Positions 3,053-24,478 of a stretch of DNA of 64,000 bases are shown in pieces (the first letter of the stretch is position 1; each line of letters starts with the position of its first letter). Source of the DNA: Arcobacter sp. CECT 8985 (GTDB lineage: Bacteria; Campylobacterota; Campylobacteria; Campylobacterales; Arcobacteraceae); the NCBI RefSeq assembly GCF_004116495.1, contig NZ_PDKC01000011.1:1-64000 (forward strand), in the 5' to 3' direction. A program made the position numbers and the translations under genes. The notes under the pieces were generated by a model. The model saw only the letters and a list, made by a program, of their open reading frames with translations, was not told where the DNA came from and did not search any database.

Positions 3053-3053
3053 G

Positions 3054-4553: not shown

Positions 4554-4942
4554 AAAAAGCTTTTTCATTAATAGAAGTTATTATCTCAATCACACTTTTG
4601 AGTGTTGTTTTATACTCATTTATAAGTTTAAAAAGTAATAATATATCTATTATTGAAAAACTGAAACAAATAAATAAAAGAAATAACTATATAAATCTTG
4701 CTATAAAAAGTACAAATGATATAAAAAGTGATGAAAGTTTTTATCTTACAGATATTTATAAAAACACAAATAATTCATTAAGAAAAGAGCTAAAAAACCT
4801 ACATATTACAAAAAAAAGAGTTTTAGAAGAGAAAAAAGAGTTTAATTTTGACAATAGTATAAATATAGAAATTGAAGTATTTAAAACAAGTTATAAATTA
4901 AATTCAAAAAACAAAAATATATATGAGGTAAAAATAAAATGA
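4550..4942 (+). CDS. Minor pseudopilin (GspI/GspH-like)
   Basis: A 130-residue protein beginning MKKAFSLIEVIIS, a classic class III prepilin leader: a short basic peptide, predicted cleavage before Phe5, and glutamate at mature position 5, followed by a hydrophobic helix. The rest is short and polar with no recognised motif. It overlaps gspE by four bases (ATGA) and the next pseudopilin by four. The position and size fit a minor pseudopilin of the same secretion machine; which one (GspI, GspH) cannot be decided by eye. Confidence 0.75.
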   Translation: MKKAFSLIEVIISITLLSVVLYSFISLKSNNISIIEKLKQINKRNNYINLAIKSTNDIKSDESFYLTDIYKNTNNSLRKELKNLHITKKRVLEEKKEFNFDNSINIEIEVFKTSYKLNSKNKNIYEVKIK

Positions 4943-5442
4943 AAAAAGCATTCTCATTATTTGAGCTAATTATATCTATATCAATTTTTTTTATTATAAG
5001 TATATTTTTATATGATTTTTTTAATAATACAAAAATTTCAAATAATAAATTTGAAAAAAATATAAATAAATTTTATAAAACAGAAGATTTAAAACATATA
5101 TTTTATAAAGACTTTTTTCAAGCTTCATCAATATCAATAGAAAACAATTCTAAAAATAAACAAATAATAAGATTAATAACAAAAAATAGTTACCACAATC
5201 CATTTTATAATAATATTACATATCTTTTAAGTAATGATAATAGATTAATTAGAGTAGAGAGTAAAAAAAGAGTAGAAAAAGACAATCTTTCAAAAGAGTT
5301 TTTTAACACCTCTTATATTGATATATTAAGAAATAATATAGAAGATTTTAAACTAATAAAATCTTCTTTAAATAGTAAAAAATATCTACTTTATATAAAA
5401 AGTAAAAAGTTAGATTTAAAGATACCTCTTCTTGTATTTTAG
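4939..5442 (+). CDS. Minor pseudopilin (GspJ-like)
   Basis: A 167-residue protein with the prepilin leader MKKAFSLFELIIS, again with glutamate at mature position 5 and a hydrophobic helix to about residue 27. Being longer than its neighbour and last of the pair, it fits a GspJ-type minor pseudopilin. A prepilin peptidase must cleave it; none is encoded in this window. The stop codon lies inside a hairpin shared with the convergent yejF gene. Confidence 0.72.
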   Translation: MKKAFSLFELIISISIFFIISIFLYDFFNNTKISNNKFEKNINKFYKTEDLKHIFYKDFFQASSISIENNSKNKQIIRLITKNSYHNPFYNNITYLLSNDNRLIRVESKKRVEKDNLSKEFFNTSYIDILRNNIEDFKLIKSSLNSKKYLLYIKSKKLDLKIPLLVF

Positions 5443-5450
5443 GTATCTTT
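5418..5450. terminator. Hairpin between convergent gspJ-like and yejF genes
   Basis: Two perfect 9-base arms, AAAGATACC (5418-5426) and GGTATCTTT (5442-5450), enclose a 15-base loop. The structure covers both converging stop codons. The T-run is weak on each side, so termination is probable rather than proved. Confidence 0.5.
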
Positions 5451-7044: not shown

Positions 7045-8067
7045 TTATTTCTCAGCTATTCGTGGATCCATAGCATCTCTAAATGCTTCACCTATAAAAA
7101 TCAATAATGTTAAAAGTAAAGATAACACAACAAATGCAGTTATTCCTAGCCAAGGTGCTTGTAAATTATCTTTTCCTTGTGCCAATAATTCACCCAAACT
7201 TGGACTCCCTGCTGGTAAACCAAAGCCTAAAAAATCTAATGAAGTTAAAGTTGTAATACTTCCACTTAAAATAAAAGGCATAAAAGTTATTGTTGCAATA
7301 ACGGCATTTGGTAAAATATGTTTAAATATTATAAGTTTATCACTTTGACCTAGTGCTTTTGCTGCTTTTACATACTCAAAATTTCTTGCTCTTAAGAACT
7401 CAGCTCTTACTAATCCTACTAAAGCTGTCCATGAAAAAAGTAAAAGTAACCCTAGTAACCACCAAAATGTGGGCTGAATATAATTTGCTAAAATGATTAA
7501 TAAAAATAGAGTTGGTAAGCCAGACCAAATTTCAATAAATCTTTGACCTAATAAATCAACTTTACCACCATAATAACCTTGTAATGCGCCTATAATAACT
7601 CCAATAATTGAAGAAAGTATTGTCAAAGTCAATCCAAAAAGTATGGAAATCCTAAATCCGTACATAACTCTTGCTAAAACATCTCTTCCTTGATCATCAG
7701 TTCCTAATAAATTCTCACTACTTGGAGAAGAAGGGAAAGAGGTAGTTGAATTAGTTTTAATAGTATCATATGAATATCTAATTAGTGGCCAAATAATATA
7801 GCCATCTTTATTTATTAAATCTTGAACAAACTTATCTTTATAATCAGCTTCTGTTTCAAAAAAACCACCAAACTGTTTTTCAGTATAGACTTTAAAAACT
7901 GGTGTATAAAACTCATTTTTATACGAAATTAAAAGAGGTTTATCATTTGCAATAAACTCTGAAAACAGTGTTATTATAAATAAAAATGAAAAGATAATCA
8001 AAGAGTAGTAACCTCTTTTATTTGACTTAAAAACTGCTAATCTTTTTTGTTTAATTGTTTTGCTCAA
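7045..8067 (-). CDS. yejE: Peptide ABC importer permease YejE
   Basis: An inner-membrane permease of the binding-protein-dependent type: an N-terminal membrane anchor, a long periplasmic loop (to about residue 130), then five or six membrane helices with the EAA-type loop near KAAKALGQSDKLIIFKHILPN. The chosen start is TTG at 8067 because AGAGGG lies five bases upstream, giving 340 residues. A TTG at 8082 would add five residues but has no ribosome site. It lies one base after yejB ends and pairs with YejB to form the channel. Confidence 0.88.
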   Translation of the reverse strand: MSKTIKQKRLAVFKSNKRGYYSLIIFSFLFIITLFSEFIANDKPLLISYKNEFYTPVFKVYTEKQFGGFFETEADYKDKFVQDLINKDGYIIWPLIRYSYDTIKTNSTTSFPSSPSSENLLGTDDQGRDVLARVMYGFRISILFGLTLTILSSIIGVIIGALQGYYGGKVDLLGQRFIEIWSGLPTLFLLIILANYIQPTFWWLLGLLLLFSWTALVGLVRAEFLRARNFEYVKAAKALGQSDKLIIFKHILPNAVIATITFMPFILSGSITTLTSLDFLGFGLPAGSPSLGELLAQGKDNLQAPWLGITAFVVLSLLLTLLIFIGEAFRDAMDPRIAEK

Positions 8068-8068
8068 A

Positions 8069-9160
8069 TCAAACCCTCTCAAAATTAATTCTAGGATCCA
8101 CCCATGTATATAAAATATCTGAAACTAAAGATATAACTAATCCCATAAGTGTAAAAATATATAGTGTGGCAAACATTACAGGATAATCTCTATATAACGT
8201 TGCTTCAAAACCTAATAACCCTATTCCATCTAAAGAAAAGATAACTTCTATTAGTAAGGAACCTGTAAAAAACATTCCTATAAATGCAGCAGGAAAACCA
8301 GATATTATAATAAGCATGGCATTTCTAAATATATGTTTATATAATATTTTATTTTCTTCTAAACCTTTTGCTCTTGCAGTAACCACATATTGTTTTGAAA
8401 TTTCATCTAAAAAAGAGTTTTTTGTAAGCATTGTAAGAGTTGCAAACCCTCCAATTACCATTGCTGTAATTGGCAAAGTTAAGTGCCAAAAATAGTCTTT
8501 TATTTGTTGCCATAAACTTAACTCATCAAAATTATCGCTAAAAAGGCCTCTTAAAGGAAATATATCAAAATAGTTTCCTCCAGCAAATAAAATCACAAGT
8601 AAAATTGCAAATAAAAATCCAGGTATTGCACTACCTATAATTATTACAGTTGATGAGTAAACATCAAATTTTGTTCCATGATTTAAAGCCTTTTTTATTC
8701 CTAATGGTATAGATATAAAATATATTATCAATGTAGACCAGAGTCCTAAAGATATAGAAACTGGCAATTTTTCTTTAATAAGTTCAATTACAGTTGCATT
8801 TTTAAAAAAACTCTCTCCAAAATCAAAGGTAATATAATTTTTCATCATTAAAAGATATCTTTCTAAAATTGGTTTATCAAATCCATAAAGTTTTTTAATA
8901 TCTTCTACTAATTCAGGAGATAAACCATTTGAACCTTTATATATTGACTTTTCATCATTTACAGAAGTTGTATCCATTACATCTGATTGATTATCTCCTG
9001 TTATTCTTCCTAAAGTTGTATCTTTCTGACCTTCAATTTTAAGAAGCATTCTTTCAACAGGTCCTCCTGGACTTGTTTGTACTATAAAAAAATTTATTGT
9101 CATAATCCCAATTAAGGTTGGGATTATAAGCAATAGTCTTCTAAATATATAGCTAGTCAT
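8069..9160 (-). CDS. yejB: Peptide ABC importer permease YejB
   Basis: A 363-residue permease of the DppB/OppB class. The first helix is at residues 8-28, starting with [20 protein letters not shown], a typical start for this family. The insert after helix 1 (about 35-100) is characteristic of YejB. The EAA loop contains [23 protein letters not shown]. Together with YejE it forms the inner-membrane pore for peptides, such as microcin C in Escherichia coli. The start overlaps the end of yejA by eight bases, showing tight coupling. Confidence 0.9.
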
Positions 9161-10937
9161 TTAAAAACTCATCTTTTATCCACCATGTAAATAGTCCAAG
9201 TGAATATTTTGGTGTAATTTTTGGCTTGTTAAATTTATTCCAATAAGCAACTCTATAATATGGCGTATAAAAATTTGAAATAACATAATAGTTATATGTT
9301 AAAACTCTATCTAAAGCTCTAACAGCTGAAATTAAATCTGTTCTTGATTTTGCAGTAACAATATAATCAATTATCTTGTCTACTACTTTAGAATTAACTC
9401 CTATCATATTTCTGCTACCTTTTATCTTAGAAGCAGCACTTCCCCAAAAACTTCTTTGTTCATTTCCAGGAGAAGAAGAGACTCTAAATACATTAGCAAT
9501 CATGTCATAATCAAAGTTTCTTACTTTATTAATATATGTTATTTGATCAACAATTCTAATCTTTGCAATAACTCCAATCTTTTTTAAGTTATTAATAAAT
9601 GGATGAATTACTTTTTCTAAAGAAGATGATCCAAGAAGAATTTCAAACTCAAATTTTTTACCATCTTTTCTAAGTACTCCATCTTTAATTTTCCAACCTT
9701 GAGAATATAAGATTTTTAATGCTTTTCTTAACTCATTTCTTATATTTCCATCTCCTTTTGTTTTATTAGCTTCATAAGCTTTACCAAAAACCTCATCAGG
9801 AACTTGACCTTTAAATTGATTTAAAATTTTAAGTTCGCCTTCTGTTGGCAATCCTCTTGCAGCAAGTTCACTATTTTCAAAATAAGAGTTAATTCTTTTA
9901 TATTGATTATAAAAAAGATTTTTATTTGTCCATTCAAAATCAAATGCAAGATTTAAAGCCTTTCTTACCTCTTTATTTTTAAAAATATCTTTTCTTATAT
10001 TAAAAACAAAGCCTTGCATTCCTTTTACATTTTCATGTTTTATCTCATCTTTTATAATTTTATGATTATCAAAATTTTTTCCAGTGTATAATGTCGCCCA
10101 GTTTTTTGCACTATTTTCCATTATATAATCAAATTCACCTGCTTTAAAAGATTCTAATATTACATTTCTATCTTTATAGTAATCATATCTTATTTCTCCA
10201 AAGTTATATTGTCCTACATTTACATTTAAATCTTTTGCCCAATAGTTTTCATCAAGTTTATAAGTTACATATTTTCCATATTTATAATCATCAACTTTAT
10301 ATGGTCCAGATCCTATAGGAACTACGGTATTTGAATTGGAAAAATCTTTATTCTTCCAAAAATGTTTAGGCAAAACCATAAGCTGAGATAAAATTACAGG
10401 TAATTCTTTATTTTTACTATTTTTAAAATTGAACTTTATCGTATATTTATCTATTACTTCAGCATTTTTAACATCACTATAATATTTTTTATACCAAGGA
10501 GCACCTTTACTTATTAAAATATCATATGAAAATTTCACATCTTGGGCAGTTACACTTTTCCCATCTTGAAATTTTGCATTTTTATTTATATAAAACTTTA
10601 CCCAATCATTGTTTTTTGATACTTCTATTTCTTTTGCTATTAAAGGGTAATAAACAGAGCTTTCATCCAAACTTGGAGTCATTAATGAATCATATATCAT
10701 TACTATTCCAGCAACATTATTACCTTTTAAAATAAATGGGTTAAATGAATCAAATGTTCCTGAAATAGCACCTTTAAAAATACCACCTTTTTTTGCATTT
10801 ACATTTACATAATCAAAATGCTTAAAATTCTGAGTATATTTAGGTTTTTCATTTATTGATATATATTTTTGTTTTTTTGCAAAAATATTTGTTGATAAAA
10901 GTGTAAGTAAAAAAATCGCTAAACTTAACTTTTTCAT
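9153..10937 (-). CDS. yejA: Periplasmic peptide-binding protein YejA
   Basis: A 594-residue extracytoplasmic solute-binding protein of family 5. The signal peptide is [20 protein letters not shown] (residues 1-20). The mature part has the peptide-binder hallmarks: [19 protein letters not shown] near the N-terminus, [17 protein letters not shown] around residue 125, and [17 protein letters not shown] around 320. The order yejA-B-E-F matches the enterobacterial operon. The start overlaps exbD by four bases (ATGA), tying peptide import to the upstream TonB machinery. Confidence 0.9.
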
Positions 10938-11329
10938 TTATTCTCCTTTGTAATTAAAAGCAAATTATTTAGATTTAATTTATTTAAGATATCAAGAAGT
11001 TCAATTACTCTTTTATACTTTACTTCTTTATCTATTTTTACATTTATTGGTGTATCTTTTTTCATCTTTGATAAATTATCTTTTAATAAAGAAAAAGATA
11101 TTTTTTCACCATTATATGCAACTTCATTATCAGAAATTTCTATCATAATCTCTTTTTTCTTTACTACCTTTTGAGTTGATGTAGAATTAGGAAGTGTTAA
11201 ATTTAAAATCGTTTCATTTTTTTTAAACTCACTTGCAACAATAAAAAAGATTAATAATAAAAATACAACATCAATTAATGGAGTTAAGTCCATTGAAATC
11301 AATTCTCTTTTTTTAACTAATCTTTTCAC
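10934..11329 (-). CDS. exbD: ExbD/TolR-type energy transducer
   Basis: A 131-residue protein with one membrane helix (about 15-35) carrying the conserved aspartate in MDLTPLIDVVFLLLIFF, followed by a periplasmic ExbD domain. It uses the proton-motive force together with ExbB to power TonB. The start is GTG at 11329, with AGGA six bases upstream. It overlaps exbB by 17 bases and yejA by four. A TolR identity is possible by sequence, but the tonB gene next door favours ExbD. Confidence 0.9.
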   Translation of the reverse strand: MKRLVKKRELISMDLTPLIDVVFLLLIFFIVASEFKKNETILNLTLPNSTSTQKVVKKKEIMIEISDNEVAYNGEKISFSLLKDNLSKMKKDTPINVKIDKEVKYKRVIELLDILNKLNLNNLLLITKENK

Positions 11330-11855
11330 GAGTTATCCTATTAATAATAATAGATTCATATTTTGTTTCTAATTTAGTTAAAGAACCAGATAAATAGTTA
11401 AACCCAATATAATGAGGTAATGCAACAATTAATCCACCAACAGTTGTAATTAAAGCAAGAGAAATACCTGAAGCAAAAGTATTTGCACCTTGAGAAAAAC
11501 CTGCTGCAGCAATTGTTTCAAATGATTGCAATACACCAATTACAGTTCCTAGAAGGCCTAATATAGGTGCAATTGTCGCAATAATTTTTATTGTATTCAT
11601 ACCTGTTTCACAACTTAAAAGATGTTTTGATGCTCTATTAAATACTGCATCCTCAAGATCTTTTAAATTTGAAGAAGAGTGCTCTTTATGTACTGAAGTT
11701 ATTATTTGAGTTATAACTTTTTGAGCTTTTTTATTTTCAATACTAATTTGAATAAATTTCCATAATAGAATTGAAAGTCCAATGATATTTAAAAAAACTA
11801 GGATATACATTACATATCCTCCAAGATGTATATACTCAATTAATGAATGTTTCAT
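11313..11855 (-). CDS. exbB: ExbB/MotA-TolQ-type proton channel protein
   Basis: A 180-residue membrane protein with three helices (about 12-35, 90-115 and 130-155) and the family signature from IKIIATIAPILGLLGTVIGV to GGLIVALPHYIGF. ExbB is the scaffold of the ExbBD motor that energises TonB. It follows tonB by 14 bases and overlaps exbD. A copy within the receptor operon suggests a dedicated energising complex. Confidence 0.92.
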   Translation of the reverse strand: MKHSLIEYIHLGGYVMYILVFLNIIGLSILLWKFIQISIENKKAQKVITQIITSVHKEHSSSNLKDLEDAVFNRASKHLLSCETGMNTIKIIATIAPILGLLGTVIGVLQSFETIAAAGFSQGANTFASGISLALITTVGGLIVALPHYIGFNYLSGSLTKLETKYESIIINRITREKIS

Positions 11856-11869
11856 TTTTTACCTTTAAT

Positions 11870-12595
11870 TTATTTTATTTGAAATTTTATTGGAACTTTA
11901 ATGTCCAAAAATGCTTTATAAATCTCTTTAGGAAATGGTTCAAAGTGTTTTGTCTTTTCTACTGCTTTTATTGCTGCTTTATCTAACCTTTTTTTTCCAC
12001 TTGATCTAAATAATTTAATATCAACAAACTCACCTGTTTTTAATACTCTAAAATAAACAGTTGCAGTTCCTTGTTCTTTAAATCTTTTTGATAATATTGG
12101 ATATTTTTTATTACTATCAATTTCTGCTCTTAATCTAGTAAGATAAGTTTTTTTAGATTTTTTAAATTTCTCTAAAGATTGAACCTGTTTCTTTTTTGAT
12201 ACAGAAGCTTTTTTTTCTATTTTTTTTGCTTCTTTTTCTACAACTTTTTTAACTTGCTTTCTTTCAACTTTTTTTACAGGTTTTTCTTTAACTTTTTTCT
12301 CTACTTTTTTTACTTTTTTAGGTGCTTTTATCTCTTTTTTTACATATTCTCTTTTTGCTTCTTTTGTTAACGGTTTTTTAAATACTTTTTTCTTTTCTTC
12401 TTTTTTTATCTCTTTTTTCTTCACTTCTTGTTTTTTTACTTTTTGTGGAACTTGAAGCATTGCAAGTTGAACACTCACTTTATTAAAATGAGGTTTATTA
12501 ACTTGCTCTTGTTTTTTTTCATAGAAAAAAGTCAATACAAAATAGTGTAATATAATAATAAAAATAAAAGATAAAAGAAAATATATTTTGTTCAA
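11870..12595 (-). CDS. tonB: TonB energy-transducing protein
   Basis: A 241-residue TonB. An N-terminal membrane anchor (about 5-24) has a His in the helix. A long lysine-rich periplasmic spacer follows (about 50-155, dominated by KK, EK and VK repeats instead of the usual Pro-Lys/Pro-Glu repeats). The C-terminal domain (about 155-241) contains YPILSKRFKEQGTATVYFRV and SSGKKRLDKAAIKAV. The start is TTG at 12595 with AGGA eight bases upstream. The spacer is unusually poor in proline, so it may be more helical than in E. coli TonB. It lies between the protease gene and exbB. Confidence 0.9.
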   Translation of the reverse strand: MNKIYFLLSFIFIIILHYFVLTFFYEKKQEQVNKPHFNKVSVQLAMLQVPQKVKKQEVKKKEIKKEEKKKVFKKPLTKEAKREYVKKEIKAPKKVKKVEKKVKEKPVKKVERKQVKKVVEKEAKKIEKKASVSKKKQVQSLEKFKKSKKTYLTRLRAEIDSNKKYPILSKRFKEQGTATVYFRVLKTGEFVDIKLFRSSGKKRLDKAAIKAVEKTKHFEPFPKEIYKAFLDIKVPIKFQIK

Positions 12596-12605
12596 ATTAT
12601 TTTTC

Positions 12606-15380
12606 CTATTTATTTTTATGTTTTGGATTTAATTCTGTGTATAAAACATCTTTTGCATCAAAATATTTATTTGCTTCTTGTTTTATAATTGAACTATTTA
12701 TATTCGTATAAAGATCTTTATATTTATCAATATCATTTATATTATCTCCATAGTAATATACTTTTTTCAATTGTTGTAACCAAAAAGCTGGATTATTTTT
12801 AGACGATTCTAAAGATAAAAGTGCTTTTTTTCTAAATGCTTGTATATATACTTTTGAAACACCATTCTTCTTAATATCACTTATTACCTCTCTAACAGAA
12901 CTTACAAGTTCTTCTTTTCTTTTTGGATCACAACTAAAATTAATTTGAATTCCTGATTTTACATATGGTTCTCTAATAAAACTAGTTTGAACATTTATTC
13001 TATAAACACCTGATTTTTCTTCTCTTATTTTTTCTCTAAGTTTAATCTTTAAAACTTCTTTTAAAGCAGTTAAATATACAGAATTTTCTAAAGAGTAAGA
13101 AGTATCAATTTTGTATATCATTTTAATTTTAGATAAATTCCTATTATTATAATCTCTTATAAATTCTTGTTTTCCTGATAGAGGTTTTATTCCTCTATAT
13201 TTATAGCTTTCTTCTCTTTTTAGTGTTGGCAAGTTACCTAAATATAATTTTGAATATTTTTCTACTTTTTCTTTACTTATATCTCCAACAATTAAAAATG
13301 TAAAATTATTAAAATCAGAATATCTATCTTTATAAATTCTAAGCATATCCTCTTTATTTAATGAATTTATATCTTCAACAGATGTTCTTTCGAATCTTTT
13401 ATTATGGTTAAAATAAAAAGATTTTAACTCTTTATTAAATTTATTAGAAGGAATAGATTCTTGATCTTTTATTTTTCTTTTTTCTGTATTTTTAATATTT
13501 TCAAAGATATTATTATCGAATCTATATTTTTTACTCATTAAATATACTCTTTGCATTAATAAATTAAAATCATCAATAGTTGTAGCCCCTTGTAAACTTT
13601 CATTATATCTATTGATTTTTGGGTTAACACTAATTATTTTAGAGTTATATATTTTATTTACTTGCAAGATATTATATTTATCTAAACCAGATGAAGATAT
13701 TACACTTGTTGCATATTTGGCATTTACTAAATCTTTTGTTTTATATAAAGAGAATCCACCCCTTGAAATTGCATTTAAAAATACTTTATTTTTTTTATCA
13801 TCACTATATTTATAAACTACTTTTATTCCATTTTCAAGAGTAAATTCATAGAAGTCATATTTTTTATTATGCTTTTCATTTTTTATTTTTACAGGCTTTA
13901 AATAACTTGTATCAATAACTTCTGGTAGCTCTTCTTCTTTTTTAGCTTTTTTAATATGTTTTTGAGATCTAATAAAAGTATCTATAATTTTCTTTTTATC
14001 AACTTTTATATCTAAAGGTGTTTTATAGCTAAGGATTATACTTTTTGTATCCAATATCTGTTTATATTTATTATTTACCTCATTTAGTGTCACATTACTT
14101 AATATTTTATCTACTAATTTAATTGCATACTCTTGATCTATAAGAATTTCATCATTTAATACTGATGATACAATTTTATTTGCATATGATTTTGATGATT
14201 TACTTTTTATATATTTTAGACTTTCATTATTAGCAGTTTTTAATTCTTTAACAATTCTTTTAAACTCATTTTTATCAAATCCATTATGTTTTATACTATA
14301 AATTAAAGATGTTAATTCATCCAATGCTGTATATTTATCTTTTTTATTTAAATATGTTGTGCTAAAAGAAAATGTTCTTAGATTTGATACAAAATCTCGT
14401 GAATTTAAATTTGTATTTTTTATTACTGGATTAACTTTTAATATTTGTTCACTTGCTTTTATATTAAATAGATTTGCTGCTAATACCCTTAATACCAATT
14501 GTTTATAATCTTTATCTGTTTTTATCTTATCTCTATCGTGGTAATAATTAATACTAATACCTGGTTTTATTAACTCTTTATCTTTTAAAACCATAGCCGT
14601 TATTTCATCTATTTTTTTAACAGCTCTATTTGCAGGTTTTCTTTTTGATTTATTTTTTAAATAAGAAAAATTCTTTTTAATTAAATTTTCTATATTTTTA
14701 ATATCAATATCACCTGTAACAACTAAATGCATTAATTCTGGTCTATACCAATCATCATAAAAATCTTTAACTCTTTTTAAAGAAGTGTTTTTGACAATAT
14801 CTAAATCCCCTATTGGTGTTCTTGTTCTATATTTACTATTTTTGTAAATAGTACCTTTCATTTGTTGATAAAGTCTAAAATTAAGATTATTTCTTACTCT
14901 TGCTTCTTCTAAAATTACACCTCTTTCTTTGTCTAGTTCTTTTTGATCAAAACTAATTGCACCTGCCCAATCTGAAAAAATCAACATAGCTTTTTCTAGA
15001 TTATCATTTTTTAAAGGAAGATCCATTTTATAAAGAGTTCTTGTTGTAGTTGTACTTGCATTTATATCTGCACCGAAACCAACACCAATTGATTCTAAGA
15101 ATTTAATAATTTTATTACCTTCAAAGTGTTTTGTTCCATTAAAAGCCATATGCTCAACAAAATGAGCAAGACCTTTTTGATCATCATCCTCTTCTAAAGA
15201 ACCAGCTTTTACAACTAGTTGTATATATGCTTTTTTCTTAGGTTTACTATTCTTTTTTATTGTATATTTAAATCCATTCTTTAGTTCACCATGCACATAA
15301 CTTTTATCCTCTGGTAAAAGTTTTGCATTTGTAAAACTAAAACAGAAAACTAATATAAGTATGTTTGTTAATATTCTCAT
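12606..15380 (-). CDS. Periplasmic M16 zinc protease, PqqL/FusC-like
   Basis: A 924-residue, four-domain M16 metalloprotease with a signal peptide (about 1-19). The inverted zinc motif HFVEH is at residues 73-77, and the third ligand is expected in KERGVILEEAR near Glu152. The second half (about 500-924) is the inactive M16 repeat that closes the clamshell. The length matches E. coli PqqL (931 residues) and Pectobacterium FusC, which degrade imported proteins after TonB-dependent uptake. Its place between the receptor and tonB genes supports the same role: trimming an imported protein into peptides for YejABEF. The real substrate is unknown. Confidence 0.85.
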   Translation of the reverse strand: MRILTNILILVFCFSFTNAKLLPEDKSYVHGELKNGFKYTIKKNSKPKKKAYIQLVVKAGSLEEDDDQKGLAHFVEHMAFNGTKHFEGNKIIKFLESIGVGFGADINASTTTTRTLYKMDLPLKNDNLEKAMLIFSDWAGAISFDQKELDKERGVILEEARVRNNLNFRLYQQMKGTIYKNSKYRTRTPIGDLDIVKNTSLKRVKDFYDDWYRPELMHLVVTGDIDIKNIENLIKKNFSYLKNKSKRKPANRAVKKIDEITAMVLKDKELIKPGISINYYHDRDKIKTDKDYKQLVLRVLAANLFNIKASEQILKVNPVIKNTNLNSRDFVSNLRTFSFSTTYLNKKDKYTALDELTSLIYSIKHNGFDKNEFKRIVKELKTANNESLKYIKSKSSKSYANKIVSSVLNDEILIDQEYAIKLVDKILSNVTLNEVNNKYKQILDTKSIILSYKTPLDIKVDKKKIIDTFIRSQKHIKKAKKEEELPEVIDTSYLKPVKIKNEKHNKKYDFYEFTLENGIKVVYKYSDDKKNKVFLNAISRGGFSLYKTKDLVNAKYATSVISSSGLDKYNILQVNKIYNSKIISVNPKINRYNESLQGATTIDDFNLLMQRVYLMSKKYRFDNNIFENIKNTEKRKIKDQESIPSNKFNKELKSFYFNHNKRFERTSVEDINSLNKEDMLRIYKDRYSDFNNFTFLIVGDISKEKVEKYSKLYLGNLPTLKREESYKYRGIKPLSGKQEFIRDYNNRNLSKIKMIYKIDTSYSLENSVYLTALKEVLKIKLREKIREEKSGVYRINVQTSFIREPYVKSGIQINFSCDPKRKEELVSSVREVISDIKKNGVSKVYIQAFRKKALLSLESSKNNPAFWLQQLKKVYYYGDNINDIDKYKDLYTNINSSIIKQEANKYFDAKDVLYTELNPKHKNK

Positions 15381-16651
15381 TTTTTTCCTTTTTCAATATT
15401 TAATTTGTTAAATAAAAAAAGTGCTAAAATAGTATAAACACCACCTATTGAAATTAAGACTAATGGATAGATTTTATTTTTTAATGATTGTTTAGTATAG
15501 ATATAATAAACAAGAAGTAATATTGCTATTATAAAATATAAGATATATGATATTTTACTTATATCATAAAACTTCAATGTATATATTCCATTTTCTGTTT
15601 TTTTAAATCTTAATTTAAAAGGTAATAATAAAGAACTAATATTTTCATATAACTCTCCATTATCAATTTTATATTTTAACTCTTTTGATTTTATTGTATT
15701 GTAATTCAAATCCATTACTATTTTTTCAATTACTTTTTCATTTGATTCGAAATCATAAGATTTTAAAGTAATGATTTTATTATATGGAGTAGAACTTAGC
15801 ATTAATGATTTTGAATTATAATCAAAATCTTTAACTGGAAGTTTTATTAATTTATAATTATTATAAGTTAATAAATAGACATCTTTACTTTGCGAAACTA
15901 ATAATCCATAAAATTGTTTATGATAATTCTCTTTTACTAATAAAAATTTAGTTTTTACACCTTTTGTATCTACTTTTTTTAACATGATTTTATTATTTAT
16001 TTGTTTCATATGAAATAGAAAATTATTGCTATCTAATAAAAAGTACCCCTCATCAAATGGCTTAGCAGTTGAAGGTGTTCCAAATGCTTCTTTTAAAGGA
16101 AACTTTGCACCTATTTCTTTTAATCTATTAGTTATAAATGTAGTTTTTTCTTTATTTTCTTCATTTGAAATTGTATTTATAAAAGTAATTGAGTTTTTGT
16201 TTAAAGTAAATAATTCATCAGGCAATGTTAAAGAACTATATTTAGGATTTGATTCAAGAAGTGGATATAAATTAACTAATTTTGTATTAATAATTCCTGG
16301 ATTAACCTTTATGTGTGATTTTTGACTTCTTATTAAATTTACATTTCTTTGAAACTGAGAAAACCCTTCAGGAAAATTTTTTGTTTTAACTAAATCATAA
16401 TAAAATGTGAATGGTCTTTTTTTCTTATACTCATCTAAAGTATATTCAACAGATTCATCAAAGTTTGTATATTTTATTTTTTTATTTTTTTTATCTACAT
16501 TTACTTTTATAAAATCTTTTGTAACAGGAGAATAATAAATATTTTGTACAGAAGAAGGTGTAGCTAAAAAATCTTTTACAATTTTAGGTAAATAAAGACT
16601 AAAAGTAAGTGCTGAAACTATAATAATTAAATATATTCTTAAATTTCTCAT
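15377..16651 (-). CDS. Membrane-anchored protein of unknown function, ABC-module partner
   Basis: A 424-residue protein. One helix lies at the N-terminus (about 5-24). A long extracytoplasmic region (about 30-350) with a beta-strand-rich pattern follows, and two or three helices close the C-terminus (about 355-415). I do not recognise a named function. The layout recalls proteins labelled DUF4857 that sit beside small ABC exporters, but that is memory and not a search result. It overlaps both the permease and the protease genes by four bases (ATGA), so it is made together with them. It is probably the periplasmic-facing part of the ATPase/permease unit. Confidence 0.6.
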   Translation of the reverse strand: MRNLRIYLIIIVSALTFSLYLPKIVKDFLATPSSVQNIYYSPVTKDFIKVNVDKKNKKIKYTNFDESVEYTLDEYKKKRPFTFYYDLVKTKNFPEGFSQFQRNVNLIRSQKSHIKVNPGIINTKLVNLYPLLESNPKYSSLTLPDELFTLNKNSITFINTISNEENKEKTTFITNRLKEIGAKFPLKEAFGTPSTAKPFDEGYFLLDSNNFLFHMKQINNKIMLKKVDTKGVKTKFLLVKENYHKQFYGLLVSQSKDVYLLTYNNYKLIKLPVKDFDYNSKSLMLSSTPYNKIITLKSYDFESNEKVIEKIVMDLNYNTIKSKELKYKIDNGELYENISSLLLPFKLRFKKTENGIYTLKFYDISKISYILYFIIAILLLVYYIYTKQSLKNKIYPLVLISIGGVYTILALFLFNKLNIEKGKK

Positions 16652-17325
16652 TTTATATATCCTTTTGTATAAGAAGTAAAAACATCAAAAACAATAATGA
16701 TATAAACAATAAGAACAGTAATTACAAAAACATTTAAATTTGTACTAACAAAATAACCTAATTTTGATAAAGCTATATATTTATCAATTATCAAATAAGA
16801 AACTAATATATACGTAATTTTTCTAATTCCTTTTGGTTCTAAAAATACTATCATTGTAGTGAAATAACAAAGTAATGATGCAATAAAAGATGGTAATACT
16901 CTTGAAAATACTGCATAAAATACTTCTGTAGGAAAAGATGAAGTAATCATAAAAAAATAAATAACTGTTATTATAGAAAAAATTAATACTAAAAATATTC
17001 CTCCAACAGATACTAATGCAGAAATAAGTAAATTTTGACTCATTGGTAAATGCAAGAATAGTCTAATTCTTCCATTTGTAACTTCTGGATAAAATTGAGC
17101 CGTTGCTAGAAATATTGCAAAAAGCATGCATACATATTCTAAGTTACTATAATCAAAGACTCCCATTTGAGTAATCATCAAAATTGCATTTGTAGAACTA
17201 TATTGAACAAGTGAGTCTTGAATTGAAAAGTAAGTATTAAATAAACAACATGCAATTAAAATTAAAAATATAGATATAATTTTAATTGTTTTTAGGTACT
17301 CTTTATAAATAATCATATTAAACAT
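16648..17325 (-). CDS. ABC-2-type permease subunit
   Basis: A 225-residue integral membrane protein with about six helices (near 14-33, 62-80, 98-128, 140-165, 168-190 and 195-215). The topology fits the small ABC-2-type permeases that pair with a separate ATPase. The start overlaps the ATPase stop as TAATG. The substrate cannot be inferred from sequence. With the 424-residue partner downstream, it forms a three-gene ABC unit inserted between the TonB receptor and the protease. Confidence 0.7.
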   Translation of the reverse strand: MFNMIIYKEYLKTIKIISIFLILIACCLFNTYFSIQDSLVQYSSTNAILMITQMGVFDYSNLEYVCMLFAIFLATAQFYPEVTNGRIRLFLHLPMSQNLLISALVSVGGIFLVLIFSIITVIYFFMITSSFPTEVFYAVFSRVLPSFIASLLCYFTTMIVFLEPKGIRKITYILVSYLIIDKYIALSKLGYFVSTNLNVFVITVLIVYIIIVFDVFTSYTKGYIK

Positions 17326-18215
17326 TAATATCTTCCTGTATAACCCATAAAAGATTCTTCTAAATTCATAGATATCTCTTCAATATCTTCATATAATAAA
17401 TTTTGATTTTTCATATACTCTTTTATAAAAACTAAGTCATTAAAACTATAAATATATGAGTAATCATTAAAACTTTCAAAATTTACAATTATAGAATTTA
17501 AATCAATTTTGTGAGCATTTAATTTTTTTATTTTGTATTTTTTAAATGTAGATTCAAACTCTTTTAAAGAGCTTTGAAGTAAAGGCTGAGTTCTATCTAA
17601 AATAATAATATCATCTAAAACATTCTCTAAGTTTTGCATAATATGAGTAGTCATGAGAACAGTTTTATTATTTTTAATTACATACTCTTTTAAATACTCT
17701 AAGAATAAACTTCTATATCCAACATCTAATCCTAATGAGTAATCATCTAAAATTAATAAATCAGCATCTTGTGCAAAAATAAGTCCAAGAACTACTTGTG
17801 AACGTTGACCACATGACATTTTTCTTATTATCTGATTTTTTGGAACTGATAATTTTGAAACAAGTTCATAATATAACTCTTTTTTCCATCTATTTGGATA
17901 GAATTTTGAATAAAATTTTTCAATTTGTTCAATAGTCATAAAATCATATTGAACATGACCTTCATGTAAAAGCCCTATTCTCTGCTTTGTTTTTGGAGTT
18001 AATTCATGTGAGTTTTCATTGTAAACTAAACATTCTCCTGATGTTGGTTCCAAAAACCCCATTAATATATTTATTGTTGTTGATTTTCCAACTCCATTTT
18101 TACCTAAAAGTCCAACAATCTTGCCTTTTGGAATAGAAAAAGAAAAATCTTCAAAAATTTTTCTTTTTCCATAATAATGTGTTAAATTTTTACATTCAAT
18201 TATATTTTCAATCAT
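17325..18215 (-). CDS. ABC transporter ATP-binding protein with divergent motifs
   Basis: A 296-residue ATPase. Walker A is GKNGVGKST near residue 38. The signature is MSCGQ rather than LSGGQ. The Walker B region reads LLILDDYSLGLD, where the usual LLLDEPTSGLD has a catalytic Glu; here Asp follows the Walker B Asp. The last 80 residues form an extra domain typical of ABC-2 ATPases. The Glu-to-Asp change need not abolish hydrolysis but is unusual. It lies 12 bases after the receptor gene and overlaps the permease gene by one base. Confidence 0.82.
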   Translation of the reverse strand: MIENIIECKNLTHYYGKRKIFEDFSFSIPKGKIVGLLGKNGVGKSTTINILMGFLEPTSGECLVYNENSHELTPKTKQRIGLLHEGHVQYDFMTIEQIEKFYSKFYPNRWKKELYYELVSKLSVPKNQIIRKMSCGQRSQVVLGLIFAQDADLLILDDYSLGLDVGYRSLFLEYLKEYVIKNNKTVLMTTHIMQNLENVLDDIIILDRTQPLLQSSLKEFESTFKKYKIKKLNAHKIDLNSIIVNFESFNDYSYIYSFNDLVFIKEYMKNQNLLYEDIEEISMNLEESFMGYTGRY

Positions 18216-18227
18216 TGCTACTAATCC

Positions 18228-20708
18228 TTAAAACTTGTAAGCGATATTAAACCAAATTTGTCTACCAGTTACATAGTTTTTTATAGAATTATTAACATTT
18301 TGTACTTTATCAAATAAGTTTGTTACTTCTGTACTAAAAAGAATATTGTGTTTTTTGGCTAATTTGAAATTCATCATTAATTTTAAATCTACTAATAAAC
18401 TATTTTTAAAATCTACTTTTTCATATACTGGGACTTCATACTCTTTCTCTCTTCCATCTGGAGTCTTTTCTTTATAAATTTCTACATCTTCAGAACCAGT
18501 TTGTCCAATCATTGAATAAGCTAATTTATATCTAAATACATTATTTAGATTTATCTTTGTTGGTATTCCAAATATATTAACTGGTTTAAATGCAAAATCT
18601 AAATGTAAATTTATGTTTTTCGGAGTAGATTCATTTGGAATATTATCCATATCATAGAATTTACCATTATAATAAATTTTATTAATATCCCTATCACTGT
18701 CATCACTATCTAAAATATCATCATAGTCATCAATATTTGACTTTGTTTTTCTCCAAGAAGTAGAAAGGCTATATCCCAAATTAAAAGAGTCGAATTTAAT
18801 AGGTTCGGTAGGAGCAATACTTAAAGTTACAATATCTGACTCAGAGTAACCATCATTTGTAAAATATGTTGGTCTATAGTAAGCTTTTGTTACACCATTT
18901 GGCATTGTGAAAACTTTATAGTCACCTTTTTTCTTCGCAAATTTACTTTTTGCTTCTCTATTTACATATTTTAAATTTATTCTTGTTCCAAATAAATCTT
19001 TTCTAATTCCTATTGATTTTTCATCTGTATATGGTGTATCTAAGTCTTCAAAAGTATATTTATTATTATCTTTATCTGCACTTGTTCCCCAATCTTGCAC
19101 AACATTAGCTACAGTACTTCTATATTCATCAAAATATGGAGCTCTTGCTTGTCTTAATTTATAACCTAAAAATGATTTCCCATAATATCTATTAAATCCT
19201 CCATAAAGAACTAATGAATTATCATTAAAAGGCTTAACACTTCCATTTAATCTATATGCAATATCTTTGTTTTTTAAATAGTCATTATAATCTAATCTAA
19301 TTCCTGGTGTAAACTCAAATATTTTATATCTTAAATTATCTTCTAAATATATTGCCGAAGCAATCATATCTGCAGTTGCCTTTTCAGCTTGATAAACTCT
19401 TCTTTCTGTAAAATACTGTTCATTTTGAATACAATCTGAGTTACTACCATTACAATCAACAAAAACATCATTTTTTGCATCTGTATAATAAAGAGTATTA
19501 TCAAATCTATTGTATGTTCCTTTGTTATAAGATAAATTAATACCTGTTTTTAATTTATGAGATATAGCTGCTGTATCAAAACTATCAGATTGAAGTTTTA
19601 GATTATATTCAAGCCCTTTTTGGATTTTTTCAATATTACCTGTTCCACCTTCAACAGAATGAGTGTTACCATCTTTACCCCAATTTGTAGTTCCCATATT
19701 TAGCCATCTTTTATTATAGTTTAAAGATTCTTTTGTATTTTCACTATATTTAAAGGCTAAATTTGTTCTTAAATTCCAAAAATTATAATTTTTTTCATAA
19801 TTTGCTTTTAAATTAAATCCTCCTCCTTTAATCTCTGTATCTGAATCTTTTACATATTCACTAAAATGCGTTGATTTATAAGGTGAATATGTAGCAGAAA
19901 TATCTAAAATTGCATCATCTTCAAAGTAGTGACTAAATTTTCCAAAAAGACTTTGATTTAATCTTTGTTTATTTTTAAAACCGCCAAAATATGCTCCAGG
20001 GATAGTTGATTCTTTTCTGCTATATGAAATTATTGCACCATTATAATCATCTAATGGAGTAGTCGCATAAAAATTATAAAAACTTTTTTTAAATTTTGGT
20101 TGATTATTATCAGAAGATGCTCTTTCAAAAGATTCTTCATTATCTACATGAAAATTAGTTAAACTATCACTTGTATATCCATAAGATGCTTTAAAAGATG
20201 GCTCTGCTCCTGGCCTTATAGTTTTTGCATCAATCACACCTCCTGTAAAACTACCATATTCTGCAGATATATTAGAATCATATACATCAATACTCTCTAC
20301 TAAATCTAAATCTAAAAATATTTCATTTTCATTTCCAGGAACATCATAAGCATCAAAAGCATTTGATAAATTTGGATCAAGTAAAGAACTATTGGATATA
20401 CCATCTATTGAAAAATTATTTTGATAATAAGCAGCTTCATTTATTGATATTTTACCAGGAGCAATTTCTCCTGCTGTTTTAGAGTTGTTTGAAGTATCCG
20501 TTACTTCAATATTTGGGTTTGTGTCCAATACTGAACTGATAAAACCATTTCCTAAAACAGAATTTTGTATATTTGTTTTATCTATTTTACTAGATGAAAT
20601 ACTTGTACTTGTTGTATCTTGATTAGCATCAACTGTAATAACAGATAACTCTTCAGCATTCACTAAAGAAAGAGTTAATGCAGTTAATAAACTTAACTTT
20701 ATTTTCAT
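18228..20708 (-). CDS. TonB-dependent outer-membrane receptor
   Basis: An 826-residue outer-membrane receptor. The signal peptide ends LSLVNA; the mature start EELSVITVDANQD includes a plausible TonB box. A plug domain (about 40-165) contains NNFSIDGISN and a segment ending EYGSFTGGVIDAKT. The beta-barrel follows, ending in QIWFNIAYKF with a terminal phenylalanine, as needed for barrel assembly. The chosen start is ATG 20708, since GGAG lies six bases upstream; an ATG 15 bases earlier lacks such a site. It begins one base after the lipoprotein gene ends. The ligand is unknown; the protease and peptide importer downstream suggest a protein or peptide. Confidence 0.9.
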   Translation of the reverse strand: MKIKLSLLTALTLSLVNAEELSVITVDANQDTTSTSISSSKIDKTNIQNSVLGNGFISSVLDTNPNIEVTDTSNNSKTAGEIAPGKISINEAAYYQNNFSIDGISNSSLLDPNLSNAFDAYDVPGNENEIFLDLDLVESIDVYDSNISAEYGSFTGGVIDAKTIRPGAEPSFKASYGYTSDSLTNFHVDNEESFERASSDNNQPKFKKSFYNFYATTPLDDYNGAIISYSRKESTIPGAYFGGFKNKQRLNQSLFGKFSHYFEDDAILDISATYSPYKSTHFSEYVKDSDTEIKGGGFNLKANYEKNYNFWNLRTNLAFKYSENTKESLNYNKRWLNMGTTNWGKDGNTHSVEGGTGNIEKIQKGLEYNLKLQSDSFDTAAISHKLKTGINLSYNKGTYNRFDNTLYYTDAKNDVFVDCNGSNSDCIQNEQYFTERRVYQAEKATADMIASAIYLEDNLRYKIFEFTPGIRLDYNDYLKNKDIAYRLNGSVKPFNDNSLVLYGGFNRYYGKSFLGYKLRQARAPYFDEYRSTVANVVQDWGTSADKDNNKYTFEDLDTPYTDEKSIGIRKDLFGTRINLKYVNREAKSKFAKKKGDYKVFTMPNGVTKAYYRPTYFTNDGYSESDIVTLSIAPTEPIKFDSFNLGYSLSTSWRKTKSNIDDYDDILDSDDSDRDINKIYYNGKFYDMDNIPNESTPKNINLHLDFAFKPVNIFGIPTKINLNNVFRYKLAYSMIGQTGSEDVEIYKEKTPDGREKEYEVPVYEKVDFKNSLLVDLKLMMNFKLAKKHNILFSTEVTNLFDKVQNVNNSIKNYVTGRQIWFNIAYKF

Positions 20709-20709
20709 A

Positions 20710-23700
20710 TTATACTCCATCATATGGTAATGTATCTACTGTATCTAAGATACCATCACCATCTATATCATCATCTAATTCAAGAGTTGAATTATTAATT
20801 TGTTCTTCTGTAGTACCAAAATTAAAGAAATCAGGTCTACCATCTCCATCAGAATCTACACTTGCAATATCGTTATATAAAAATGCATCATAGTTTATAA
20901 GTGCTTCTGATGCTTCTACATATGCAGATACTTTCTCTTTAGTTGTTAATATTTTAGAAATATATTTTTTTGCAGAAACTACATCATTTATATGTCCATA
21001 TGCAGAAACTAAATTAATTACTAATTTATAGTAATCAACTGTTTCTTCTAGTGTATTTAAAGAAGCTAACGCTTCTTTAATAATATCCTCAGCTTTGTTT
21101 TTTTCTCCTAATTGAAAGTATCCATTTGCAATTGATACTTCAAAATTATTACTATTACTTTTATAATTACCAACTAAACTTTCAACTCTAGTTGTTATGT
21201 CATCTAGATTACCACTATTTAGAGGTTCTACTAAACTATGAGCTTTTTGTATTAATTTTAATGCATTTTCTTTTTGTTCATTTGAAGATAAAATATTTGC
21301 AGCATTTATAATTTTACTTATATCTTCAAAGCTACTTACTAAAGCCTCATTTGATATCTCAGTTAAAATGTCATTTATTGAAAAAGAGTCTTCATATCCT
21401 AAATCTTTGATGGCATTAATAATATTTATTAATCCCTCAATTTTCTGTTCAGAATCAGTAAACAATTTTACCTTTTGAATTGATTCAGTAATTAACTGTT
21501 TAGCTTTTGTATCTTTACCTAGTTCTTTATACATCTGTGCCATAGATAAATATCCATATTTACTAGTTTCTGAACTTCCCCAAGAAGCGTAAATATTTTT
21601 GTCATCAGCATCAGAATATTTTGTCCAAGTTTTAGATAAAGCATGTAATCTATCTAAAAAATCTTCTAACTCATTATCTCCACCTAATATGTGAATCATC
21701 ATAGCTGCTGTCATAATTGCATTTGATTTTTGATATGTTGCTTCTTTTATTAAATAGTCTTTTTTATTATTAGGGTATGCTGAATCATAATATTGAAATA
21801 ATTCATCTTTTTTGCCATTTAAAAATAGTCCTGCTGCTAATCCATTTTTCAATGCATCATCTTTTCTACTACTACTTAATGCATTATAACCAGCCATTGC
21901 AGCTTCTAAGTTTCCAGCTAAACCATCATATGCAACAGCGTAATATCCATAAGTACCTGATGGTTCTAGTCTTGAAGCAAAAGCACTACTTTTTGCAATA
22001 TTTACAGCTTTTGATGTATCTAATCCTAAACCTTGTCCTTCTATTGCAATTCTATATAAATAATAAACAACAGAGAATTTATCCATTGGCATTTCATCTA
22101 TATATTTTATATTTCTTTGAAATATCTTTTTTGCTAAATCTAAATTATTATTATAAAAATATGTATTAACTGCAATATTATCTATTAAAGAAGTGATTTT
22201 TTGAAAATCACTTGATTTTGAATTAAATTTAGATTTTATTTCATCTAAATAATCAAGCATTGTTGAAAATCCAGTAATATTTCCATTATCATTTTCATAT
22301 CCAAGCTCTGCCATATATCTATTAATATTTGCCATTAATGTTGTATTTGTAGAACTTAAACTATTAACTAGACTCAATTTTAATGTATTAAAAGCTTTAG
22401 ATAAGGCAATTGCTGCTTTATCGTCTTGTTTTAAATCTATTAATGTTTTAGCAAGTTCATAAAATCCTTCTTGAATCTCTTTTGCTTGATATAAATTATC
22501 TTCTAAGTATGAAATTGATTCATCAAAAAAACCATATTTTGCTAAACCTATTCCTAATTGTGTATTTATAGGGTCATTTACACTATCTAAAAGAGTATCT
22601 TCTATTAAACTTAAAGCTTTTCCTAAATTTGATATATCTGAGTGTGCATAATAATATCTTCTGGCATCATTATTATTACCAACTTTCATTTGATATGTTT
22701 TACTATTTATAAAAATAATCCCTTGGATATTTTTAATATCTATTTTATTCCAATTAATATCACTTTCAAACGATGGACTTGATAATTTTGAAGATAGTGC
22801 TGAATCTAATACTTCTCCTTTATCATCTGAAAAACTAGGAGTTAATTCAATATCTACTAAAGCTTTTCTAATTTGATTTTTATTTACAGAATTATACTTG
22901 TTCTCAAGCTTATTAGCATCTGCTATTTTTTGCGCAAGTAGTATTAAATTATTTTCTATTCTACTTGAATAAGTGTCTTGATTATAAATATCTTTTAAAT
23001 ATTTTTCAACTGCTTTTATTACTACTAATTTAGATATATCTTCTGCATTTGAAACATTATTTATATCATCAATAATATCAATAAAATCTTGTTTGTCTTG
23101 ATTTAAAGAAGGAATTAAATCAATATTAATATAATCATCTACATTATCTTGTGTAATTGAATTATCATTTTTTAAATTTAAGTAACCTCTATTTGAACCA
23201 TTATCTTTTTTAGTTAATGCTACTTTTGTTAAGATTTTACCTAGTTTTGCTGTTTTTATATCTTCCATTGGGTTTTGTAAAAGCTTAGAGGAGTCGATAT
23301 TTAAAAATTTTGATACTTCTTCCTTAGCAAAAGTAGGATTTGTATCAAAATCACTATGATTTGTAATCATTGTTGTAAAAGGTGTGATTAAAATTCCATT
23401 TTTTTTATTAAATAAACTATAAGCACTAGTTAGAGTTAGTCCTGTAAAGTCATCTCCATCATCTCCACCTGTTGTTGTAAACTTACATTTACTTAGGTTT
23501 ATATTTGATGAAACTCCTTTTATTATAAAACTACCTTCTTTATCTGTTTTTGATGAATAGTAAGTCTTTTCATTACAAATAAAAGATACTCTTGCTCCTA
23601 CAATTGCTGGATCTATAACTTTTCCTGTAATTGACGAATAAGAGGCGCTTGAATCTCCACCTCCGCCTCCGCCTCCGCCTCCACCACAAGCAGTGAAGAT

Positions 23701-23745
23701 TAAAGGTAAAATAACTAACAAATATGTGGTTGCCTTTTTATACAT
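20710..23745 (-). CDS. Large poly-Gly lipoprotein with helical repeats and Asp-rich calcium-type repeats
   Basis: A 1011-residue lipoprotein. The signal peptide ends in the lipobox FTAC with the lipidated Cys at residue 20, followed directly by ten glycines (21-30). Next come a carboxypeptidase-regulatory-like beta domain (about 38-95) and a long helical region (about 100-940) with TPR-like units such as DESISYLEDNLYQAKEIQEG. The C-terminus has two Asp-rich motifs, DSDGDGRPD and DDDIDGDGILD, resembling thrombospondin type 3 calcium sites. The lack of an inner-membrane retention Asp after the Cys fits outer-membrane placement. First in the operon and one base from the receptor gene, it probably captures or presents ligand. 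No named family was recognised. Confidence 0.75.
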   Translation of the reverse strand: MYKKATTYLLVILPLIFTACGGGGGGGGGGDSSASYSSITGKVIDPAIVGARVSFICNEKTYYSSKTDKEGSFIIKGVSSNINLSKCKFTTTGGDDGDDFTGLTLTSAYSLFNKKNGILITPFTTMITNHSDFDTNPTFAKEEVSKFLNIDSSKLLQNPMEDIKTAKLGKILTKVALTKKDNGSNRGYLNLKNDNSITQDNVDDYINIDLIPSLNQDKQDFIDIIDDINNVSNAEDISKLVVIKAVEKYLKDIYNQDTYSSRIENNLILLAQKIADANKLENKYNSVNKNQIRKALVDIELTPSFSDDKGEVLDSALSSKLSSPSFESDINWNKIDIKNIQGIIFINSKTYQMKVGNNNDARRYYYAHSDISNLGKALSLIEDTLLDSVNDPINTQLGIGLAKYGFFDESISYLEDNLYQAKEIQEGFYELAKTLIDLKQDDKAAIALSKAFNTLKLSLVNSLSSTNTTLMANINRYMAELGYENDNGNITGFSTMLDYLDEIKSKFNSKSSDFQKITSLIDNIAVNTYFYNNNLDLAKKIFQRNIKYIDEMPMDKFSVVYYLYRIAIEGQGLGLDTSKAVNIAKSSAFASRLEPSGTYGYYAVAYDGLAGNLEAAMAGYNALSSSRKDDALKNGLAAGLFLNGKKDELFQYYDSAYPNNKKDYLIKEATYQKSNAIMTAAMMIHILGGDNELEDFLDRLHALSKTWTKYSDADDKNIYASWGSSETSKYGYLSMAQMYKELGKDTKAKQLITESIQKVKLFTDSEQKIEGLINIINAIKDLGYEDSFSINDILTEISNEALVSSFEDISKIINAANILSSNEQKENALKLIQKAHSLVEPLNSGNLDDITTRVESLVGNYKSNSNNFEVSIANGYFQLGEKNKAEDIIKEALASLNTLEETVDYYKLVINLVSAYGHINDVVSAKKYISKILTTKEKVSAYVEASEALINYDAFLYNDIASVDSDGDGRPDFFNFGTTEEQINNSTLELDDDIDGDGILDTVDTLPYDGV
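23656..23685 (-). repeat. GGAGGC hexanucleotide repeat encoding ten glycines
   Basis: Ten consecutive glycine codons, mostly alternating GGA and GGC, form a G-rich tandem tract just after the lipidation cysteine. It stands out in an otherwise very AT-rich sequence. Gain or loss of a six-base unit would keep the reading frame and only change the length of the flexible linker. Confidence 0.85.
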
Positions 23746-23811: not shown

Positions 23812-23830
23812 GATAATTGTTCTCATTATA
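23812..23830 (-). promoter_or_regulatory. Fur-box-like operator
   Basis: GATAATTGTTCTCATTATA matches the classical 19-base Fur consensus at 14 of 19 positions, with the outer half-sites GATAAT and TCATTAT intact. It lies where a repressor would block the -35 region of the operon promoter. Because the flanks are very AT-rich, chance similarity is a real possibility. It could also influence the divergent mazEF genes. Confidence 0.45.
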
Positions 23831-23969: not shown

Positions 23970-24182
23970 ATGGAAATAAAAATAATAAAAATTGGTTCAT
24001 CAAAAGGAATAAGAATTCCATCTAAAGTTTTAAAAGAGTTTAATAACCCTGATGGATTTAAACTTAATATGACAGAATATGGTATTTTTTTAAAACCATA
24101 TAGTAATAATATTAGAGATGGCTGGAAAGAAGCATATAAAAAAAGTAACTCTTGTGCCTTAGATAAGAAAGAAAAACTATGA
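23970..24182 (+). CDS. MazE/AbrB-type antitoxin
   Basis: A 70-residue protein with a swapped-hairpin AbrB DNA-binding domain at the N-terminus: IKIIKIGSSKGIRIPSKVLKEF follows the MazE pattern of a K-x-G-N-S-x-x-I-R-I-P core. The remaining C-terminal part would wrap around the toxin. The start has AGGA about seven bases upstream. The stop overlaps the next start (ATGA), the usual toxin-antitoxin coupling. It probably represses its own promoter in the 224-base divergent region. Confidence 0.8.
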   Translation: MEIKIIKIGSSKGIRIPSKVLKEFNNPDGFKLNMTEYGIFLKPYSNNIRDGWKEAYKKSNSCALDKKEKL

Positions 24183-24478
24183 ATATATTACAATACAATA
24201 TCTATACATTTAATTCTGAAAATAGTGAGGAGATGATATATGCAGTTGTTTTATCACCAAATGAGATGAATGAAGTTTTAAAAACAGTTATAGTTGCTCC
24301 ACTTTGCAATCAATGTGATATTACACCAACTACATTTTTAATTGATGATATTACAAGAGTTAGGCTAGATCAAATTACTACTATTGAAAAGATTAATGTT
24401 GATAACTATATCGCAAAAATTAATGATTCTCAAATCCAAAAAATCAAAAATACTCTTGATGAGATGTTAATTAAATAA
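24179..24478 (+). CDS. MazF/PemK-like toxin
   Basis: A 99-residue protein in the position of the toxin. The core (VAPLCN, PTTFLID, RVRLDQITTIEKINVDNYIAKI) follows the MazF/CcdB fold; the RVRLDQITTI strand resembles MazF's VLLDQIRTVD. The N-terminus lacks the common GDI(Y/V)LVDL start and instead looks a little like CcdB, so the target (mRNA cleavage or gyrase) is not settled. The 3' end overlaps the convergent fetB-like gene by 12 bases. Confidence 0.72.
   Translation: MNILQYNIYTFNSENSEEMIYAVVLSPNEMNEVLKTVIVAPLCNQCDITPTTFLIDDITRVRLDQITTIEKINVDNYIAKINDSQIQKIKNTLDEMLIK

Follow-up and report, generated by a model that had tools for sequence, protein, structure and literature searches.

A giant lipoprotein family encoded beside FusA-like TonB-dependent receptors in three bacterial phyla and its possible role in Fus-type import

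Protease-associated import systems consist of a gate, an energiser, a periplasmic protease and a route of inner-membrane uptake, and are encoded in sporadically distributed clusters (Grinter et al. 2019, PMC6793856). Detailed knowledge of how folded proteins cross the outer membrane comes mainly from ferredoxin, which enters via FusA with no described lipoprotein partner. The characterized Fus systems work with FusA alone, the ferredoxin pocket being made by loops of FusA itself (PMC5095587), a fact that counts against the capture role proposed below for a lipoprotein. The TonB proteins of the FusB type are marked by an RRxxYP motif (PMC13253070). Among iron receptors, TbpA-TbpB and HpuA-HpuB of Neisseria are bipartite, each comprising a surface lipoprotein and a TonB-dependent transporter (PMC7857515). 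Iron depletion in Bacteroides thetaiotaomicron causes a 37- to 128-fold induction of a locus that combines DUF4857 with an ABC ATPase and a TonB receptor (PMC10434189). The literature that we searched describes no lipoprotein partner for Fus-type importers, though absence there is not proof of novelty.

The sequence analysed here, hereafter the window, is a stretch of 64,000 nucleotides from Arcobacter sp. CECT 8985 (contig NZ_PDKC01000011.1), whose genome of 2.79 Mb is labelled G000. It contains a lipoprotein gene, henceforth LP, which is open throughout and belongs to an operon with the following components:

23812-23830, minus strand: Fur-box-like site TATAATGAGAACAATTATC, 15/19, 67 bp upstream of LP (consensus match only)
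20710-23745, minus strand: LP, a lipoprotein of 1011 amino acids, partner of the FusA-like receptor (ORF and relatives)
18228-20708, minus strand: FusA-like TonB-dependent receptor (FusA 4zgv, YddB 6ofr), its ORF open from 20723 and its true start probably at 20708
17325-18215, minus strand: ABC ATPase, nearest models PmtA/GldA (family models)
16648-17325, minus strand: ABC membrane subunit, without family match, conserved alongside the ATPase
15377-16651, minus strand: DUF4857 membrane protein (PF16149, E 2.9e-58)
12606-15380, minus strand: PqqL/FusC-type M16 protease with HFVEH zinc motif (PqqL 6ofs, E 2.7e-79) and a signal peptide recognized by eye
11870-12595, minus strand: TonB (PF03544)
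11313-11855, minus strand: ExbB (PF01618)
10934-11329, minus strand: ExbD (PF02472)
9153-10937, minus strand: YejA-type substrate-binding protein (YejA 8fsr, E 7.7e-145)
8069-9160, minus strand: YejB-type permease (PF00528)
7045-8082, minus strand: YejE-type permease (PF00528, OppC_N)
5449-7035, minus strand: YejF-type fused double ATPase (two ABC_tran stretches)

By this gene content, the operon is a predicted Fus-type protease-associated import system for a protein or peptide. The receptor matches the ferredoxin receptor FusA (4zgv, E 1.4e-84) over residues 34-829 and YddB (6ofr) with E 4.6e-54, and PqqL is the closest named solved relative of the M16 protease. An earlier sequence-only reading of the window overlooked both the FusA-like identity of the receptor and the Fus-type import character of the whole operon. 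Its observation that a single base separates LP from the receptor gene holds if the receptor starts at ATG 20708, behind a GGAG, which is probably its true start; in the longest reading, which begins with the earliest in-frame ATG (20723), the two genes would share 14 bp. LP is translationally coupled to its TonB receptor. The TonB of the window has DSNKKYP where the FusB type has RRxxYP, and so lacks the FusB-type motif.

The ABC ATPase, its membrane subunit and the DUF4857 protein (15377-18215, minus strand) accompany FusA-like receptors in both Campylobacterota and Deferribacterota. With exporters (PmtA, GldA) as its nearest models, the ATPase is an odd component for an importer. Divergent from the operon is an ORF for a MazF/PemK-like toxin (24179-24478, plus strand; PF02452, E 6e-12), and convergent with it is a type II secretion-like cluster (355-5442, plus strand) encoding a secretin, a T2SSE ATPase and two pseudopilin-like proteins. 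Type II secretion was considered as a dedicated export route for LP and rejected, since the secretin is near-universal in the family (101/104 genomes) and hence not linked to LP.

LP itself can be divided into the following parts:

23686-23745, minus strand: signal peptide and lipobox, MYKKATTYLLVILPLIFTAC, with predicted lipidated Cys20 (sequence; Cys conserved)
23656-23685, minus strand: ten-glycine tether, residues 21-30 (sequence)
23386-23643, minus strand: N-terminal beta domain, carboxypeptidase-regulatory-like, residues 35-120 (model; weak PF13620; module on other lipoproteins)
22726-23385, minus strand: helical domain of residues 121-340, into which the shared module extends as far as about residue 260 (model)
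22630-22680, minus strand: motif G-x-x-N-x-x-R-x-x-Y-x-x-x-S, residues 356-369, and neighbours (conservation in seven relatives)
20896-22671, minus strand: alpha-alpha (TPR-like) superhelix, residues 359-950, fast-evolving (model; low identity; fold searches giving generic solenoids only)
20713-20895, minus strand: C-terminal signature tail, residues 951-1011 (conservation; LP-only; charge)
20830-20856, minus strand: loop 1, DSDGDGRPD, residues 964-972, of calcium-loop type (alignment)
20743-20769, minus strand: loop 2, DIDGDGILD, residues 993-1001, of calcium-loop type (alignment)

Cys20 is conserved in all six aligned relatives whose N terminus is present, and the ten glycines directly behind it are the poly-Gly linker that had been noted next to the lipid anchor. 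An AF2 model built on a 7-row alignment (mean pLDDT 75.2, pTM 0.69) bears out the small beta domain claimed near the N terminus, with seven strands at residues 36-120; residues 122-320 are helical, and an alpha-alpha superhelix (359-950) and a mostly loop-like tail come after them. A second AF2 model, of an Ectothiorhodospira LP2, has the same order of beta domain and helical repeat, with a pTM of 0.48 and a poorly predicted tail. The roughly 800 residues of TPR-like helices proposed earlier are predicted as a helical repeat; matches to TPR_2, TPR_8 and TPR_14 fall below the Pfam cut-offs (best TPR_2 20.8 bits against 27), which justifies calling the helices TPR-like without establishing them as TPRs. 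The first reading also held that SusD-like or TbpB-like partners lack this layout; by sequence comparison LP is a member of neither family, with no SusD/RagB or TbpB family model among its Pfam matches up to E 0.1. Fold searches with the LP model (Foldseek/VIA) retrieved generic helical solenoids only, with a best Z of 11.4 that lies in the chance range for helical repeats; SusD is absent from these solenoid-filled lists, an absence that excludes nothing. Sequence comparison of LP to the PDB gave chance matches only, mostly antibody fragments aligned on the Gly linker.

In the alignment, G356, N359, R362, Y365 and S369 of the central motif are invariant in seven relatives. The tail (951-1011) contains 17 acidic residues and one basic residue, and the two DxDxDG repeats recognized in the first reading correspond to its loops D964-SDGDGRP-D972 and D993-IDGDGIL-D1001. 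The aspartates of both loops are fully conserved across seven relatives, which represent three phyla. The DxDxDGxxD motif of the loops suggests that they may bind calcium.

In all, 16 LP genes were identified, distributed over Arcobacteraceae, Ectothiorhodospiraceae and Deferribacteraceae; a scan of genome contigs gave no match with the LP sequence alone, but did with an alignment as the query. A FusA-like receptor adjoins all 16 genes across these three phyla, strongly supporting the original proposal that LP is the partner of the TonB receptor. LP is a previously unnamed protein family, and the existence of homologues with a conserved gene neighbourhood in three phyla shows that the original observation is more than chance. 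No match to LP was found on plasmids. The five Arcobacteraceae LPs are single copies in the window, in G069 and in G089, where a contig end interrupts it, plus a pair in G088; no other genome of the family carries one. In G088 the two LP-receptor pairs (L027, L028) have opposite gene orders, and the G069 operon (L025, 2901-9973) is here without ExbB, ExbD and the YejF ATPase and has three other ORFs between YejA and YejB. The nine LPs of Ectothiorhodospiraceae are mostly arranged as LP-receptor-LP triads (G474, G483, G479 and G484), whose ORFs overlap or nearly touch and which in G479 and G484 adjoin an S9 peptidase gene; the G477 locus lies at a contig end. The PqqL-type M16 protease was not found in Ectothiorhodospira despite its LPs, which counts against the Fus-type reading. 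A Deferribacteraceae MAG contributes two LPs in two LP-receptor pairs, and its contigs jointly hold ABC, DUF4857, ExbB, ExbD and M16 genes as in the window, with an ORF between ExbD and M16 assigned as TonB-like by position only.

In a sample of relatives, all further FusA-like receptors belong to other families of the order; there are six (in G104, G105, G110 and G216), and none adjoins an LP. One of these genomes, G105, lacks LP although TonB, M16 and the ABC/DUF4857 set are present besides the receptor. In G104 (L045, 10414-14052) a di-haem cytochrome c peroxidase (PF03150) is encoded after the FusA-like receptor, a combination also described in FusA clusters without FusC (PMC6793856). In an unrooted receptor tree, one branch (support 95/92) parts LP-linked from LP-less FusA-like receptors, suggesting that the pairing arose once and then spread as a unit; being unrooted, the tree allows a single origin rather than proving it. 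The Ectothiorhodospira LPs group together in the LP tree, which places the origin of the second LP copy within that lineage. Three sister species share the GatB-GpsA-UPF0014 block, but what comes after it there is a cluster of efflux-like appearance instead of the LP operon, indicating that LP operons are gained and lost as units; this fits the sporadic distribution described for Fus clusters.

The acidic tail is the best-conserved part of LP: between Arcobacteraceae and Ectothiorhodospira its identity is 47%, as against 11-22% for the helical repeat and 26-29% for both the beta domain and the central motif. This pattern would be explained if the partner constrains the tail while the repeat can diversify with the substrate. 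A search of 12 genomes with the tail recovered LPs only, besides four chance-level matches at E 0.3-0.4. We also considered the tail as a general sorting tag and rejected this, given its confinement to LPs in these genomes. The N-terminal module (to about residue 260) behaves differently: profile searches find it on other Campylobacterota lipoproteins, with matches in 51 of 397 genomes, and it is the only part of LP that a phylum-wide search with the family profile recovers elsewhere. There it is fused to Big_9, cadherin, aBig_2 or CBM2 domains; Ig-, cadherin- or cellulose-binding-type domains occur on six of ten module lipoproteins in one scan and on one or two more in another.

The best reading of LP, given its poly-Gly tether, its Asp-rich loops and an N-terminal module that it shares with adhesin-type lipoproteins, is probably that of a capture arm or lid at the cell surface; its exposure, its contact with the receptor and its substrate are all predictions of this reading. 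We lean modestly towards the proposal that LP is the dedicated surface lipoprotein of a Fus-type importer, working like SusD or TbpB without being either. LP would be lipid-anchored in the outer membrane, with the poly-Gly tether and beta domain raising the curved helical repeat of about 600 residues over the FusA-like barrel. The variable repeat would catch or cover an iron-bearing protein or large peptide, and the invariant acidic tail with its two calcium-type loops might dock LP onto the receptor or lock the closed state. The receptor, powered by TonB-ExbB-ExbD of the same operon, would then import the cargo, the periplasmic M16 protease would cut it, and the YejABEF-type transporter would carry the pieces in.

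An unlikely alternative is that LP faces the periplasm, as an inner-leaflet helical-repeat lipoprotein that picks up the imported protein beneath the barrel and hands it on to the M16 protease or TonB. Outer-membrane lipoproteins that consist of helical repeats and point into the periplasm are common, and the operon encodes both a periplasmic protease and TonB. A search for Slam (PF04575) found no match in the host genome, in line with this alternative, but the controls gave no match anywhere either. Yet LP is kept in Ectothiorhodospira, where the PqqL-type protease is absent, and in Ectothiorhodospiraceae one receptor is flanked by two LPs. Furthermore, the recurrence of the N-terminal module on lipoproteins with Ig-, cadherin- and cellulose-binding-type domains favours, by association, the cell surface. 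LP might also itself be the cargo, an adhesin helped to the surface by the receptor and ABC set. Its C-terminal tail, conserved while the rest of LP diverges, does resemble a sorting tag and the ABC/DUF4857 module an exporter, but the tail is on no other protein in 12 genomes, the receptor, protease and ABC/DUF4857 set exist without LP in G105, and the operon encodes a peptide importer; we consider this explanation highly improbable.

What a surface-exposed LP would capture is a separate matter. The FusA-like receptor and the Fus-type operon context suggest a protein or large peptide, probably iron-bearing. Iron regulation of the LP operon is predicted from the Fur-box-like site at 23812-23830, for which the shuffle fraction is 0.023; consensus matches of 14-16/19 also lie upstream in G069, G088 and Ectothiorhodospira, and the G089 receptor has no such site upstream. 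The cargo could instead be a peptide siderophore, a metal-peptide chelate or nutrient peptides, making the system a RagAB-like peptide importer. This would suit the YejABEF-type transporter, and the PDB relatives of the operon's binding protein include MbnE of Methylocystis, a component of copper-peptide (methanobactin) uptake. The substrates of the FusA family are, moreover, mostly unknown (PMC6793856). Nevertheless, FusA is the nearest match of the receptor and PqqL that of the protease, a small chelate would need no protease, and the Fur-box-like sites point to iron; a cargo other than an iron protein is, in our judgment, rather improbable.

With a receptor of the FusA family, an M16 protease of PqqL/FusC type, a TonB of its own, a putative link to iron and the character of a sporadic accessory cluster, the LP operon resembles FusABCD of Pectobacterium and YddB-PqqL of Escherichia coli, to which it adds LP, ExbBD, the ABC/DUF4857 module and YejABEF. 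It also recalls BT3625-BT3633 of B. thetaiotaomicron, which brings together DUF4857, an ABC ATPase and a TonB receptor, but has other partner proteins (DUF4876, fimbrillin family) and no listed M16 protease (PMC10434189). As in the SusC-SusD and RagA-RagB pairs of Bacteroidetes, a helical lipoprotein is encoded beside a TonB-dependent receptor. SusD/RagB is a helical lipoprotein that caps its barrel; LP differs in its larger size, beta domain, acidic tail and FusA-type receptor, and in having no SusD/RagB family match. The linkage of lipoprotein and TonB-dependent receptor genes is likewise shared with TbpAB and HpuAB, but the Slam-dependent TbpB is beta-rich, whereas LP is mainly helical and has no TbpB match. 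We put forward, as a tentative idea with slightly less than even prospects, that the FusA-type barrel and a giant helical-repeat surface lipoprotein with an acidic tail form a new two-part receptor class importing whole proteins in Campylobacterota, Gammaproteobacteria and Deferribacterota, with two LPs per barrel in Ectothiorhodospiraceae. New family members are easy to find by the tail signature, and LP used as bait could offer a handle on the protein substrates of FusA-like receptors, an open question (PMC6793856). If LP is indeed a conserved partner of these receptors, it would join Fus-type protein import to the two-part receptors SusCD and TbpAB.
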